Assembly (NCBI GenBank): GCA_019113245.1
Contig: DXHU01000016.1
Coordinates: forward strand, 1-64,000
Length of the DNA stretch: 64,000 bases
From: Candidatus Ornithospirochaeta avicola
GTDB lineage: Bacteria; Spirochaetota; Spirochaetia; Sphaerochaetales; Sphaerochaetaceae
Direction: 5' to 3'
The notes beneath the pieces are model-generated. The model saw nothing but the letters and a program-made list of their open reading frames with translations, was not told the DNA's origin and made no database searches. This document shows positions 5,720 through 12,967 of the stretch, piece after piece. The translations under genes were made by a program, and so were the position numbers. Positions within the stretch are counted from its first letter, which is position 1, and each line of letters opens with the position of its first letter.

Positions 5720-6022
5720 TCACGCGCCCATTATCTCTTTTCTAAGGATTGCATTGATTCTCGTCTGATATCCTTTGCCCTGAGCCTTGAGAGCCAAAAG
5801 CAAATCATTGTCAATCATGATTGTAATCTTGCTTTTAGTGGGCTTATAACATCCAGGATGAACTTTACTCCAATGCTTGAAACCTTCGAGCTCATCCTCT
5901 GTCATAAAAGGACAATCATCGCTTTCAACAGGTTTTGCCTCTCTTATCACCTTCTTCTCTTCATCGGAAAGAGGAGGCATGGCTTTCACTTCTTCAATTG
6001 TCATTCTTTTTATAGTACTCAT
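5720..6022 (-). CDS. brnA: BrnA-type antitoxin
   Basis: A 100-residue antitoxin starting MSTIKRMTIEEVKAMPPLSD. The C-terminal part (KITIMIDNDLLLALKAQGKG, then YQTRINAILRKEI) is a ribbon-helix-helix DNA-binding domain of the BrnA/CopG type; the N-terminal acidic part would wrap BrnT. The start is ATG 6022, with GGAGG 8 bases before it, inside the 3' end of brnT (29-base overlap). An upstream in-frame extension to 6121 runs through brnT and is not real. BrnA normally binds BrnT and represses the operon. The gene lies within the repeat-bounded insert. Confidence 0.85.
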   Translation of the reverse strand: MSTIKRMTIEEVKAMPPLSDEEKKVIREAKPVESDDCPFMTEDELEGFKHWSKVHPGCYKPTKSKITIMIDNDLLLALKAQGKGYQTRINAILRKEIMGA

Positions 6023-6275
6023 TGCATTCCTCCTTAGTTGCTTTTCTTGCAGAAATAATTCTGATGGTATCAGCATCACGCTCTGTGTACACAACAAAAA
6101 GCAATCTTTCAACCATTCCAATCACATTATACCGGTCTTCATCGATGGAATGTTTGCAATCATATCTCTCAATTCTGTTTCCATCAAGAAAGACACGGAC
6201 AGCCATGTGGAAACTGATTCCATCATGTTTCTTGATATTTGCAATATTCTTTTCTTCATCCCATTCAAATTGCAT
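5994..6275 (-). CDS. brnT: BrnT-type ribonuclease toxin
   Basis: A 93-residue protein with the BrnT pattern: FEWDEEKNIANIKKHDGISF at the N-terminus, then EDRYNVIGMVERLLFVVYTE and a C-terminal RIISARKATKEE. In the known family this RelE-like fold cleaves RNA and stops growth until neutralised by BrnA. All usual family segments are present, so it appears intact. A weak Shine-Dalgarno (AAAGGA) precedes ATG 6275. It is transcribed first, with brnA overlapping behind it, the usual gene order for this type II module. Confidence 0.9.
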   Translation of the reverse strand: MQFEWDEEKNIANIKKHDGISFHMAVRVFLDGNRIERYDCKHSIDEDRYNVIGMVERLLFVVYTERDADTIRIISARKATKEECNEYYKKNDN

Positions 6276-8073: not shown

Positions 8074-8679
8074 ATGAAGAAAGAAGAAAGAATGCATTCA
8101 CTGGTTCCCTATGTCCTGGAGCAGTCCGGAAACGGTGAAAGACAGTACGACATATTCTCACGCCTTCTGCGCGACAGAATAATATTCATTGACGGCGAGA
8201 TAAATGACAACACTGCAGATCTCGTGGTGGCCCAGCTCCTTTTCCTTGAGGGAGAGAATCCTGAGAAAGAAGTGAGCGTCTACATAAACAGCCCCGGAGG
8301 AAGCGTGACAGCAGGGCTTGCAATCTATGACACTATGATGTATATCTCATGCCCTGTCAGAACAATATGCATGGGACAGGCATGCAGCATGGCTGCCCTG
8401 CTTCTTGCATCTGGAACAAAGGGAATGAGAAGCATACTCCCCTCTGCACGCGTCATGATACATCAGCCTTACGGAGGAGCTGAAGGACAGGCAAGTGACA
8501 TAATAGTTGCAAACAGGGAACTTCAGAGGATTAAGAAAGTCACAACAGATATCCTTGCTCTTCACACAGGAAAAAGTGCAGAAGAAATTGAGAAGGATAT
8601 CGAAAGAGACATGTATTTTTCTGCTGAGGAGGCAAGGGACTACGGGATTGTGGACAGTGTTGTTAGGAGTAGAAAATAA
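8074..8679 (+). CDS. clpP: ATP-dependent Clp protease proteolytic subunit
   Basis: A 201-residue serine peptidase subunit that assembles into a barrel fed by ClpX. The catalytic Ser105 ([10 protein letters not shown]) and His130 (ARVMIHQP) are visible, with the Asp near residue 179; [11 protein letters not shown] is the oxyanion-region signature. Two starts are possible, ATG 8074 and ATG 8092 ([11 protein letters not shown]); the second gives a more typical length. Neither has a strong ribosome-binding site. The stop codon overlaps the clpX start by one base, so the two are coupled. Confidence 0.96.
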
Positions 8680-9932
8680 TGGCAAGAGGTAAATACTGCT
8701 CATTTTGCGGAAGAAGTGCTGAAGAGGCTGGACAGCTGATCACATCCGGAGGCGTCGCCATCTGCCGCGACTGTGTCGAGACATGCCATGACATGTTCAA
8801 AAACAGCGTGCCGGCAGTATCTGATGGAGAAATACTCTCAGGTCCTGTCCCGACCCCCAGGGAAATAAAGGAATATCTTGATGAATATGTAATTGGACAG
8901 GATGAGGCAAAGCGTGTGCTCTCTGTTGCTGTCTACAATCATTACAAGAGAGTAATCAACAAAGATAAAATTCTTTCTGAAGGAGTTGAACTTGACAAGT
9001 CAAATATCCTCATGATAGGTCCGACTGGAACAGGAAAGACACTTCTTGCAAGAACACTTGCAAAGAAGCTCCAGGTTCCGTTTGCAATTGCAGATGCGAC
9101 CACGCTTACTGAAGCAGGATATGTCGGGGAAGATGTTGAGAACATACTTTTAAAGCTCATCGATGCGGCTGACTATGACATTGCAAAAGCCCAGAAGGGA
9201 ATAATCTTCATTGACGAGATAGACAAGATTGCAAAAAAGAGCGAGAACGTCTCGATAACCAGGGATGTCTCCGGAGAAGGAGTGCAGCAAGCTCTTCTGA
9301 AGATAATAGAGGGAACGGTTGCTTCAGTTCCTCCTCAGGGAGGAAGAAAGCATCCGAACCAGGAAATGCTTAAAATCGACACGAAGGACATCCTCTTCAT
9401 CTGCGGAGGTGCTTTTGTCGGACTTGAGAAAGTCATCGAAAGAAGAACAAGGGAGAGCAATTACGGCTTTGGATCTTCTGTTGCAAAAAAGAGCAACAAG
9501 GAGATAAGGGAGATATACAAATCCCTTCATCCAGATGATCTTGTAAAGTTCGGCCTTATTCCTGAGTTCATCGGAAGGCTCCCCATTCATGTAACCCTTG
9601 ATGATCTTCGCCTTGAAGACCTGAAGAGAATCATAACAGAGCCAAAGAACTCGATCATAAAGCAGTACCAGGCATCAATGAAGCTCGACGGCATTTCCTT
9701 AATCTTCACTGATGATGCAGTCTCAGCAATTGCGGAGAAAGCTTACACACAGAAAACAGGAGCACGAGGACTGAGAAGCATAGTTGAGAATCTCATGCTC
9801 GGAATTTCCTACGATCTTCCTTCAATCAAAGAGGCTCGAGAAGTCATAATCGACAGGGAGAACGTGGAGTCAGACAAGGAGCCCAAGGTCCTGCTTGCAG
9901 ATGGAAATGAATATGTTCCCCAGACCAGATGA
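8679..9932 (+). CDS. clpX: Clp protease ATP-binding subunit ClpX
   Basis: A 417-residue AAA+ unfoldase. The N-terminal zinc domain has CSFC and CRDC pairs (within the first 35 residues). Walker A GPTGTGKT is near residue 111, Walker B FIDEIDK near 175, and the C-terminal small domain has [11 protein letters not shown]. It recognises, unfolds and threads substrates into ClpP. Length and motifs are complete. The 3' end overlaps the start of the DHH gene. Confidence 0.97.
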
Positions 9933-10857
9933 AGACTTTCTGAACATAATCAGGAATAGAGATGAATTCATCCTCATTGCACACAGAAAGTGTGATGGGG
10001 ATGCTCTTTCTTCAATCAGGGCAATGGGAAACATTCTTAAAAAGAGTGGGAAAAAGGTCAGCATGCTTGCTGACTTTCCTCTTGAGAGAAATATTAAATG
10101 GATGGCAGAGGGAATTGAAGAAAACTGCGAGTGCAGTAGCGATGCACTTATAATCCTTCTTGATGCTGGAGATATGGAGAGAACAGCTTTTCCTTCCCTT
10201 TTTTCTTCTCACGATTATATTGTAATTGACCATCATAGGAGCACTGCTAAAACAGCGGGCTCTCTCTCTTCATACATTGTGCCCGAAAGCCCATCCTGCA
10301 CTCTTCTTGTGAACAAGGTACGCTCAGCGCTGAATATTCCTCTTGATAAAGAGACAGCAGCATTTCTGCTTGCAGGATTCATGACAGACACCGGCTTCTT
10401 TCATTTCATATCAGAGGAGCAGGCAGAGGAAAGCATGGCTTTCGCCCTTGAAATGACAAGAGCAGGAGCTGAAATCTACTCTCTTTACGACCGCTTGAAA
10501 ACAAGCATCACAATTGCTGAAACAGAAAGCCTTGCAAAGGCGCTTTCAAGCATCAGGATAATAAAGGGAGGAGAGATAATTACAGCACGAGATGAATCTG
10601 AAGTGAATATATCATATCTGCTCTACCCCATTCTGCTTTCCATAGAGAATGTGCGCCTAGTATGCCTTTTCAAGAAAAGAGGAAATACAATTGAACTGGG
10701 GCTTAGAGCAGTAAAAGGAAAGAATGTTGACTGTGCACAAATAGCAGCAGCCTTCTTTGGAGGAGGACACACACTTGCCTCGGGAGCAAGATTTGAAACT
10801 GAAGATTTTTCAAAAACAGCCAATGAATGTGAAAGAAAACTCGAAAAAATGATCTGA
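9901..10857 (+). CDS. DHH-family phosphoesterase, NrnA-like
   Basis: About 318 residues of the DHH/DHHA1 family, most like NrnA, which degrades very short RNAs and/or 3'-phosphoadenosine 5'-phosphate. Visible metal-binding motifs: [11 protein letters not shown] (family: HxxPDGDA; Pro is replaced by Cys), LLDAGD, DHHRS and DTGFF. The C-terminal [10 protein letters not shown] is the DHHA1 substrate loop. The start is uncertain: ATGs at 9901, 9907 and 9913 lie within the clpX 3' end and a TTG at 9895 is also in frame. It overlaps clpX, so it is probably co-expressed with it. A cyclic-dinucleotide phosphodiesterase role is an alternative. Confidence 0.85.
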
Positions 10858-10916
10858 TAAGCTGTTATAGTCTTTAAGCAGAACAAATTAAAATCTCGCT
10901 TTTTTCAAAAAAAAGC

Positions 10917-10932
10917 TGGCATGATTCTTGCC
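10917..10932 (+). promoter_or_regulatory. Sigma-54 (RpoN) promoter
   Basis: TGGCATG-ATTC-TTGCC, matching the -24/-12 consensus TGGCACG-N4-TTGCW with GG and GC exactly ten bases apart. The expected start, near 10943, leaves about 20 bases that hold AGGAGG (10952-10957) and then ATG 10963. An inverted run gctttttt/aaaaaaagc just upstream may be a bent or factor-binding site. No enhancer-binding protein gene is visible. Confidence 0.65.
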
Positions 10933-10962
10933 TAATGTTTCTTAGGAAAATAGGAGGTAAGA

Positions 10963-11940
10963 ATGAAGAGGTATTTTTCAAAGGAGGAAGACGAGATACT
11001 CACCAGTCTTGTCTTGAGCTACAACTGTACAAAGGACGAGAAGAAAAAGGAAAGTCTTGAGAAACTGGTGTTTGCCCGTACTGAGCTGCTGATTTATCTG
11101 ATACCAAAAGCAAAAGGATATCTGGAAGAGGAATATCTGGCAGAATTCTTTTTCCAACAGAGAGAATATGTCAGGGAAATGGTTTCTGCATATGTGCTGA
11201 CAAGGCTGTCTTACATAGACTATCTTGCTGTCATACTCAGAAAAAGAGCAATGACATTTCTTATAAAGGAAAAGGAAAAAGAGGAAAAGAACGGCAACCT
11301 TATCTATGAAATCGGTAAAGTCAATGCAGAGAACATGATAAGCGACAGCGCTGTCGCTTATGATTACGACAAAAACGCTCTTGTGACAGTCAATCCCGAT
11401 CGCCTTCATCTTTATGACAACATAAGCATGAAGGCAATCATCAATACCATGAGTGATGCAAAAAAGAACAGCAGCACAGGAAAAGAGGGAAAACAGAGAT
11501 ACAGGATTCTGATGTTCCTGCTTTCAGTGCCCCGGATTGAAAATCCCGAGCTCATTGCAAAGCTTTCAGATTTTCTTTCTGTCAATCAGGAGCTGCTCTT
11601 TGCATTCTTCAAGAAAAAAGATGAGCTCTGCTCGTATGATGAGAAGAAGATCGACAACCTCAGGGCAATAATATTCAGACATTACAGAATAAGACTAAAT
11701 CTGCTCCTTGCAAAAGAAAAGGAAGGAGATGAAAAAAGGATTGAGAAACTGAGCGAGAACGCCCAGAAACTTCTTTCTGCAGAAATGAAAAGAAGAAAGG
11801 AGCTGTCAAACCTAAAAAAAGGCCTAAGCCACAGAGAGATTGCCCAGATTATGGATGTATCACGCTCTCTTGTGTCTCTTAATATAAAGAAAGCAAAGGC
11901 ATACCTTGAAAAGGTGCTGGAAAACAATCAGATGATGTGA
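10963..11940 (+). CDS. Unknown HTH protein behind a sigma-54 promoter
   Basis: I do not recognise this 325-residue protein. It is rich in Lys and Glu and mostly helical. The C-terminal stretch GLSHREIAQIMDVSRSLVSL (about residues 286-305) is a clear helix-turn-helix of the sigma-region-4/LuxR type, followed by NIKKAKAYLEKVL. The first 110 residues (MKRYFSKEEDEILTSLVLSY ...) may be a second helical domain in which RAMTFLIKEKEKEE resembles the end of a sigma region 2; this is weak. A strong AGGAGG site precedes the ATG. It could be an unusual sigma-like or anti-terminator factor; a nucleic-acid-binding role is inferred only from the HTH. Confidence 0.6.
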   Translation: MKRYFSKEEDEILTSLVLSYNCTKDEKKKESLEKLVFARTELLIYLIPKAKGYLEEEYLAEFFFQQREYVREMVSAYVLTRLSYIDYLAVILRKRAMTFLIKEKEKEEKNGNLIYEIGKVNAENMISDSAVAYDYDKNALVTVNPDRLHLYDNISMKAIINTMSDAKKNSSTGKEGKQRYRILMFLLSVPRIENPELIAKLSDFLSVNQELLFAFFKKKDELCSYDEKKIDNLRAIIFRHYRIRLNLLLAKEKEGDEKRIEKLSENAQKLLSAEMKRRKELSNLKKGLSHREIAQIMDVSRSLVSLNIKKAKAYLEKVLENNQMM

Positions 11941-11981: not shown

Positions 11982-12356
11982 ATGAGAAAACTTCTAGCTT
12001 TCCTTCTCATGGCCCTGTTTCTGCTCTCTTCATGTGCACAGAGCAAAAGCGTATTCATGCCAAAAGAGGAAAAAGAAGAGAAAAACGGAGTGAATCTGTA
12101 TTTTCTGATGGGCCCGTTTTTCTCATTCATAGAAAAAACTGGGGAAGATTTCTATCTGTCTGTTCCCGATGATGGAATAAACAGGCTCAAAATGAACAGA
12201 TATTCATCAGGAGATTCTGTAATCCTTCAGGAGACAAAGAACAACATAACTATCAGAATATATACCGATCATGTCTTTTACATCTATTCCCACTACTGGG
12301 GAAATACTGAATATTATGATTCCCTCTCCTCCTCTCCTTTATTCAACAAATCGTAA
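11982..12356 (+). CDS. Small lipoprotein of unknown function
   Basis: A 124-residue protein with a lipoprotein signal: MRKLLAFLLMALFLLSSCAQ, cleavage and lipidation before Cys18. The mature part is a compact alternating-hydrophobic sequence (NLYFLMGPFFSFIEK ... ITIRIYTDHVFYIYSHYW) suggesting a small beta fold. No family recognised. It starts 42 bp after the HTH gene, but its own extended -10 lies in that gap. It is followed 20 bp later by rdgB. Confidence 0.7.
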   Translation: MRKLLAFLLMALFLLSSCAQSKSVFMPKEEKEEKNGVNLYFLMGPFFSFIEKTGEDFYLSVPDDGINRLKMNRYSSGDSVILQETKNNITIRIYTDHVFYIYSHYWGNTEYYDSLSSSPLFNKS

Positions 12357-12376: not shown

Positions 12377-12967
12377 ATGGAAATCTTTTTCGCATCATCA
12401 AACGAGCATAAGAAAAAGGAAATGCAGGCATTGTTTCCTTCTGTCAATATAATTCTTCCAAAGGAAATTGGGATTGATTTTGATCCTGTGGAAGACGGTT
12501 CTTCCTTCATAGAGAACGCACTTATCAAGGCCCAAGCTCTTTTTGACATAGTTAAACTACCTGTTTTGAGCGATGATTCAGGACTGTGTGTGAAAGCACT
12601 CGGATGGAAGCCTGGTATACATACTGCCCGCTATGGAGAAAAAGAGATGGGAAGGAAGCTCACTGACAGGGAAAAATATGAATACCTGCTTTCAAATATG
12701 AAAGAAATTAATGACAGAGAAGCATATTTTGTCTCAGCTCTTGTTCTGATTTGCTCTCCATGGGAAAAATATGTGGTTCAAGAGTCATGCAAAGGCGAGA
12801 TTGCAAGAAAAGCAGAAGGAGCAAACGGCTTTGGCTATGACCCTGTATTCTTCAATAGTGAAGCTGGCATGATATCAGCACTGCTGAGCGAAGAAGATAA
12901 GAACAGATTTTCCCACAGGGGAAAGGCTGCAAGAAAGATGAATCTGATTATAGAGGAGGTTTTGTAA
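12377..12967 (+). CDS. rdgB: XTP/dITP diphosphatase (RdgB/HAM1)
   Basis: A 196-residue house-cleaning enzyme that hydrolyses dITP, XTP and related bases to monophosphates so they are not built into DNA. Signature features: FASSNEHKKKEMQ at the N-terminus (substrate loop), FIENALIKA, LSDDSGLCV (metal-binding Asp pair), PGIHTARYG and GFGYDPVF, followed by SHRGKA at the end. All core motifs are present and the length is normal. It overlaps nothing; pepF starts 2 bases later, so they are probably co-transcribed. Confidence 0.95.
   Translation: MEIFFASSNEHKKKEMQALFPSVNIILPKEIGIDFDPVEDGSSFIENALIKAQALFDIVKLPVLSDDSGLCVKALGWKPGIHTARYGEKEMGRKLTDREKYEYLLSNMKEINDREAYFVSALVLICSPWEKYVVQESCKGEIARKAEGANGFGYDPVFFNSEAGMISALLSEEDKNRFSHRGKAARKMNLIIEEVL

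Follow-up and report, generated by a model that had tools for sequence, protein, structure and literature searches.

The locus raises the question of what a sigma-54-type promoter element would control when it stands directly before a gene whose protein resembles no familiar family. It lies in the window, the stretch of 64,000 nt at the start of contig DXHU01000016.1 from Candidatus Ornithospirochaeta avicola that was analysed (source genome: a spirochaete, 1.50 Mb in 23 contigs, 96.9% complete). The gene order is tig, clpP, clpX, DHH phosphoesterase, the sigma-like gene, a small lipoprotein-like ORF, rdgB and pepF, where tig and pepF are probable assignments made from their sequences. The genes that define the locus are the following.

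8679–9932, plus strand: clpX, conserved neighbour two genes upstream (Pfam; synteny)
9895–10857, plus strand: DHH-family phosphoesterase, conserved upstream neighbour (Pfam DHH, E 1.5e-11; synteny)
10963–11940, plus strand: gene for a 325-residue sigma-70-like protein (ORF; orthologue in 36 of 36 genus genomes; syntenic)
12377–12967, plus strand: rdgB (Ham1 family), conserved downstream neighbour (Pfam, E 5e-52; synteny)

The small ORF that follows the sigma-like gene (11982–12356) has a lipoprotein-like start and no Pfam match; a related ORF occupies the same place in 10 of the 36 genus loci. Elsewhere in the window, a BrnT toxin/BrnA antitoxin pair is encoded on the minus strand at 5720–6275 (Pfam E 1.6e-25 and 3.1e-15).

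A sigma-54 element conserved before orthologues

The signals directly upstream of the gene can be read off the sequence.

10917–10932, plus strand: -24/-12 element of a sigma-54 promoter, TGGCATG-N4-TTGCC (sequence; conservation before orthologues)
10943–10962, plus strand: predicted sigma-54 leader of 20 nt (start at about 10943–10945, placed by spacing, -12 C plus 12)
10952–10957, plus strand: Shine-Dalgarno AGGAGG (sequence)

In the element, TGGCATG and TTGCC are separated by ATTC, with GG at 10918–10919 and GC at 10930–10931 (spacing GG-N10-GC). The letters at 10917–10932 and their spacing, the 20-base leader that holds AGGAGG and is followed by ATG at 10963, and the ORF of 325 codons are all as the earlier note had described them. 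With respect to the consensus used (TGGCAC-N5-TTGCA-like), TGGCATGATTCTTGCC at 10917 has two mismatches, its GG and GC standing 10 nt apart. At up to two mismatches the motif occurs 7 times in the window, for 7.36 occurrences expected by chance, and the single site is not above that level; it is by its conservation before orthologues that the element stands out from chance.

A search with the single protein found an orthologue in all 36 genus genomes (the source genome included) and in none of 24 genomes of other families; a 95% identical protein is present in an “uncultured Spirochaetales bacterium” MAG. A family profile gave matches in 86 of 392 genomes of the phylum, some of them to region 4 only, for example on ordinary sigma factors, and no relative among the viral contigs searched. 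In 32 loci inspected outside the genus, DHH lies upstream in 20 and rdgB downstream in 20, both being present in 16 and neither in 8. Hence, as judged from sequence comparison, the protein is a member of a spirochaete family often located between the DHH gene and rdgB.

Elements within 120 nt upstream of the start were counted as strong when they reached at least 22.5 of 25.5 points on a simple weighted scale. With these weights, chosen from the sigma-54 consensus after the upstream regions had already been inspected, a strong element precedes 22 of the 36 genus orthologues. The controls gave 3 of 3950 random windows from the same loci (0.08%) and none of the windows before flanking genes (0/27 for DHH, 0/30 for rdgB and 0/28 for pepF; 0/85 in total). 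In addition, 16 of 35 further loci scanned were positive. Four of the 35 belong to additional members of the genus (one of them positive); without these, the count outside the genus is 15 of 31 loci, compared to 54 of 4320 control windows (1.25%). The scan omitted L115, whose upstream region is missing, as well as L117 and L123, which represent the same places as L136 and L121, respectively. Outside the genus, the element of L140 is a poor match, and some elements fall just inside the longest ORF, so that the true start must be further downstream there. In L031, where the reading frame is broken near the start, the alignment used the open part of the protein and the upstream start was set by eye. 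Several loci are close kin (L002/L003, L017/L018, L004–L006 and L080–L083), and P-values ignore relatedness.

The 14 genus orthologues without a strong element count against sigma-54 control. On the protein tree, the state of the element changes at least four times and the element is present in the outgroup, which makes it look ancestral and sometimes lost.

The source genome also encodes the machinery that such a promoter would need. RpoN is full length (PF04552, E 7e-48; TIGR02395, 339.7 bits for a cut-off of 277.35). Five proteins match the sigma-54 activator domain PF00158, four of them strongly: two NtrC/AtoC-like response regulators, one PspF-like protein and one shorter protein. In the genus, rpoN was detected in 35 of 36 genomes. 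G030, the one genome in which it was not found, also lacks the element, as do other genomes that have rpoN.

A possible activator site lies in the zone 30–120 nt upstream of the -24 element: the palindrome ACANNTGT is found there in 12 of the 23 promoters, always at -65 to -78, versus 1.9% of random 90-nt windows. In the same zone, no good copy of ACANNTGT precedes the window's promoter or that of its near twin. One other candidate lies upstream of the window's gene.

10855–10869, plus strand: degenerate palindrome TGATAAGCTGTTATA, possible activator site (noticed by eye only; the conserved ACANNTGT is not matched here)

Overall, the gene at 10963–11940 is very probably under sigma-54 control. 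The earlier note had proposed that RpoN controls the gene; the conserved elements, together with RpoN and its activators in the genome, support this. The lack of conserved GG/GC elements before orthologues, which it had set against its own proposal, was looked for, and the elements were found to be conserved. The note had placed this link “in this lineage”; it does hold in the genus, but the wording is too narrow, as the link extends to other families of the class.

Nature of the encoded protein

Two parts of the protein can be related to sigma factors, in which region 2 serves core binding and the -10 element and region 4 is the HTH that recognises the -35 element.

11077–11286, plus strand: probable sigma region 2-like part, about residues 39–108 (N-terminal pieces of relatives; hhalign E 0.011)
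11710–11919, plus strand: sigma region 4-like part, about residues 250–319, with an HTH at 287–313 (Pfam, family counts, hhalign)

For the window protein itself, the match to Pfam Sigma70_r4_2 (E 0.00045) is below the Pfam cut-off. Across 30 family members at E up to 1, Sigma70_r4_2 is matched in 22; two sigma region-4 models are matched in 22 and 18 members, versus 5 for GerE/LuxR. Alignment of the family with ECF region 4 by hhalign gave E 2.2e-8 and a probability of 95.3. The C-terminal HTH had been described beforehand as sigma-like or LuxR-like: the first assignment holds and the second, with GerE in 5 of 30 members, was rejected. Comparison among relatives shows the region-4 domain, as it does the conserved locus and the conservation of the promoter.

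Matches for the N-terminal part are weaker. When N-terminal pieces were searched alone, 5 of 10 members matched sigma-70 models (E 0.011–0.048), always in the register of region 2; the piece from the window protein is not among them. By hhalign, region 2 is aligned with E 0.011, a value reached by 3 of 100 column-shuffled controls; for the alignment to a group-2 sigma factor, 86 of 100 shuffles reach the score. The sigma70-ECF superfamily model matches all 30 aligned members with E values no higher than 1 (8e-13 in the best case), and in 7 of 10 members scanned separately the match spans region 2 to region 4 across a long insert. The family pattern E-D...F...Y-L...I-R, compared by eye, is similar to that of ECF region 2. 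On the other side, whole-family hhalign against ECFs, with a profile made from loci kept at E < 1e-7, aligned the C-terminus alone, and the window protein passes no curated sigma cut-off (TIGR02937, 23.9 of 42.9 bits). The part between regions 2 and 4 matched no known family. AlphaFold2, run on the window protein and its 95%-identical relative, gave an unusable model (mean pLDDT 36.9), and a sequence search of solved structures with a 30-row profile returned, with a best E of 0.003, matches to HTH proteins and a single DARPin at chance level.

From these comparisons, the protein probably belongs to the sigma-70 family and region 2 is probably present, and we lean slightly towards a working sigma factor. 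The “unfamiliar regulator” proposed earlier is indeed unfamiliar, and can now be narrowed to a divergent sigma-70-family protein. Alternatively, under the same sigma-54 control, the protein could have lost sigma function and now activate or repress genes as an ordinary DNA-binding protein that retains the region-4 HTH. The clarity of region 4 alone, the weakness of region 2 and the unmatched part between them would fit such a loss, which we nevertheless consider rather unlikely given that N-terminal pieces from half of the members searched fall into the region-2 register of sigma-70 models.

With respect to ECF sigma factors (TIGR02937, PF08281), the protein shares the C-terminal region-4 HTH, and region-2 models fit its N-terminus in the right order. 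Usual ECF sigma factors are about 180 residues long and autoregulated. Unlike them, the window protein has 325 residues, a long part between the regions, family scores that are mostly under the curated cut-offs and a sigma-54 promoter.

A predicted leader hairpin

The promoter overlaps an inverted repeat that extends into the start codon.

10924–10933, plus strand: 5' arm of the inverted repeat, ATTCTTGCCT (lies over the -12 box; an mRNA that begins at 10943 lacks it)
10955–10964, plus strand: 3' arm, AGGTAAGAAT (takes in half of the Shine-Dalgarno and reaches two bases into the start codon)

The predicted fold of 10917–10990 has an energy of -17.8 kcal/mol (z -2.5), and the cost of opening the window's Shine-Dalgarno has p = 0.06 relative to shuffles. 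In the predicted fold of the mRNA from 10943 on, the Shine-Dalgarno is free. The comparison was extended to the 36 genus loci plus L097, L107 and L108 (L099 was left out). With 70 nt upstream included, 20 of these 39 orthologues have a Shine-Dalgarno whose opening cost exceeds that of shuffles (p 0.05 or less). Flanking-gene controls, from which loci lacking a Shine-Dalgarno-bearing start were dropped (17, 13 and 33 kept; 5 kept for rlmE), gave 1/17, 0/13 and 0/33. Two other sigma-54 genes show costly opening in 7 of 30 and 4 of 30 loci, so the composition of promoters may give part of this signal. The 23 predicted sigma-54 leaders are 10–28 nt long, and none of them hides its Shine-Dalgarno (paired at 0.9 or more).

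For the long fold to matter, transcription would have to enter from upstream. No terminator-like site was found on the plus strand between the DHH stop and the sigma-like gene, and read-through is therefore possible. In L022 and L029, DHH and the promoter are separated by a strong inverted repeat and a T-rich sequence after it, and less read-through would be expected in these loci. Since the Shine-Dalgarno is predicted to be hidden in the read-through fold and free in the sigma-54 leader, we propose a lock nested in the promoter, whereby read-through mRNA would stay silent and sigma-54 mRNA would be translated. We hold this reading tentatively.

We dropped the idea that the hairpin substitutes for the promoter because promoter-bearing orthologues have the hairpin too: in equal 70-nt windows, opening is costly in 9 of 23 orthologues with the element and in 11 of 16 without.

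Instead of locking read-through mRNA, the hairpin could be an RNA thermometer or the target of a small RNA. The hairpin persists in 11 of the 16 orthologues that lack a strong element, and small-RNA-like units driven by sigma-54 and carrying a CCUCC motif occur in the genus. On the other hand, in the sigma-54-driven copies the predicted start falls downstream of the 5' arm, so that the normal mRNA would lack this arm, and nothing at the window gene closely matches the target of the small-RNA core. This alternative appears improbable, more so than the loss of sigma function considered above. Finally, a mere chance match at the element, with expression of the gene coming solely from read-through or a sigma-70 promoter, is highly improbable: the chance-level count of the single site and the lack of a terminator-like site on the plus strand after DHH would agree with it, but the element is kept in 22/36 genus and 15/31 other loci versus at most 1.25% in controls.

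Taken together, we favour an explanation in which a divergent ECF-like sigma factor, driven by sigma-54 and guarded by a read-through lock, forms the second tier of a stress cascade; sigma activity, the lock, the activator and its signal are the steps that we infer. RNA polymerase with sigma-54 (RpoN) and an enhancer-binding protein would turn the gene on from 10917–10932. The product would be a strongly diverged, ECF-like protein of the sigma-70 family in which a long insert separates regions 2 and 4, and would most likely serve as the second tier of the cascade by redirecting RNA polymerase to its own promoters. In read-through mRNA from the clpX-DHH operon, the inverted repeat would mask the Shine-Dalgarno, and the short sigma-54 mRNA would begin after the 5' arm, leaving the Shine-Dalgarno free.

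The wider sigma-54 regulon and known cascades

Other genes of the genus carry the same type of promoter, among them that of a more conventional sigma factor.

G000:C15:32004–32904 (L069, L173): group-2, RpoS/RpoD-like sigma gene under a sigma-54 element

This gene encodes 287 residues; of its 30 loci in the genus, 27 carry a sigma-54 element before it. The protein scores 250.7 of the 378.7 bits required by the RpoS model and, being under the cut-off, is termed RpoS-like rather than RpoS. An NtrC-like activator and a histidine kinase are encoded about 3 kb upstream of it (L086). The small heat-shock gene hsp20 (L233–L262) has the element in 26 of 30 genus loci. In the source genome, TGTGTCATTTTGACA-like repeats precede both hsp20 and the group-2 sigma gene and may be a common activator site. 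Two pspA-like genes, both preceded by a sigma-54 element, flank the gene for the PspF-like activator (the identities of PspF and of one of the two pspA proteins were checked). The names of these targets suggest that sigma-54 is a stress regulator here, whose targets would include an ordinary sigma gene as well as a divergent sigma-like one.

Two tandem small-RNA-like units lie upstream of rlmE (G000:C13, about 96305–96590; L088 and L203, with orthologous loci L204–L232). Each carries a sigma-54 element, a terminator and the conserved core ACAGAGCAA(A)CAG-U-run-CA..ACCUCCUU, and a CUCUCCCACCCC loop is frequent in unit B; the CCUCC motif occurs in such units in the genus. The element is present at unit A in 26 of 30 loci and at unit B in 24 of 30 (26 found). 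In the stem of unit B, three predicted pairs show changes on both sides. RNAalifold returned no structure for unit A, which we attribute to misaligned terminator columns, and Rfam gave no match over the gathering score for L088, L203, L212, L224 and L002. By their sequence, the tandem units look like an undescribed pair of sigma-54-dependent small RNAs.

The nearest known system is the Rrp2-RpoN-RpoS cascade of Borrelia burgdorferi, in which a gene of the sigma-70 family is expressed from a sigma-54 promoter under the control of an NtrC-like activator (PMC3037356). The window shares with it a spirochaete sigma-54 promoter before a sigma-70-family gene, but its protein is a diverged ECF-like one and not a group-2 RpoS. 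In the genus, the group-2 sigma factor is a second, separate sigma-54 target, and it is there, rather than at the window gene, that the Borrelia-type feature sits. Translation of Borrelia rpoS is reported to be limited by a 5'-UTR structure and relieved by DsrA, a small RNA (PMC3966842); the available passages do not describe a nested promoter-in-hairpin layout like that of the window gene. The Psp system (PspF, sigma-54, PspA) has a counterpart in the source genome, but its output is an envelope-stress protein, not a sigma-like protein. A Leptospira review lists sigma-54, sigma-28 and 11 ECFs and gives, in its accessible sections, no link from sigma-54 to an ECF (PMC12655853). In its accessible text, a survey of sigma-54 regulons from 2025 has four passing mentions of Spirochaetia (PMC12316311). 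The open-licence papers searched yielded, in their accessible parts, no description of the protein family, which is also unnamed in the available portions of PMC12655853, PMC12316311, PMC3966842 and PMC11109971.

Cascades from sigma-54 to sigma-70-family proteins in spirochaetes are known in detail from Borrelia. The present locus would add a second, apparently old cascade in non-Borrelia spirochaetes, built on a different and barely recognisable sigma-like protein. It is conceivable, at a strength below that of the explanation for the single gene, that a family of divergent sigma factors at the DHH-rdgB locus across Spirochaetia is an ancestral second tier of sigma-54 control, with the promoter nested in a hairpin so that only sigma-54 transcripts would be translated, and that within the genus sigma-54 would command two sigma factors and a small-RNA pair. 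From the cascade reading, one would expect a single start site, a regulon and a translation lock. For this gut spirochaete and many relatives, the apparent activation by sigma-54 of the gene for a second, very unusual sigma-like protein points to a two-step relay in the stress response.
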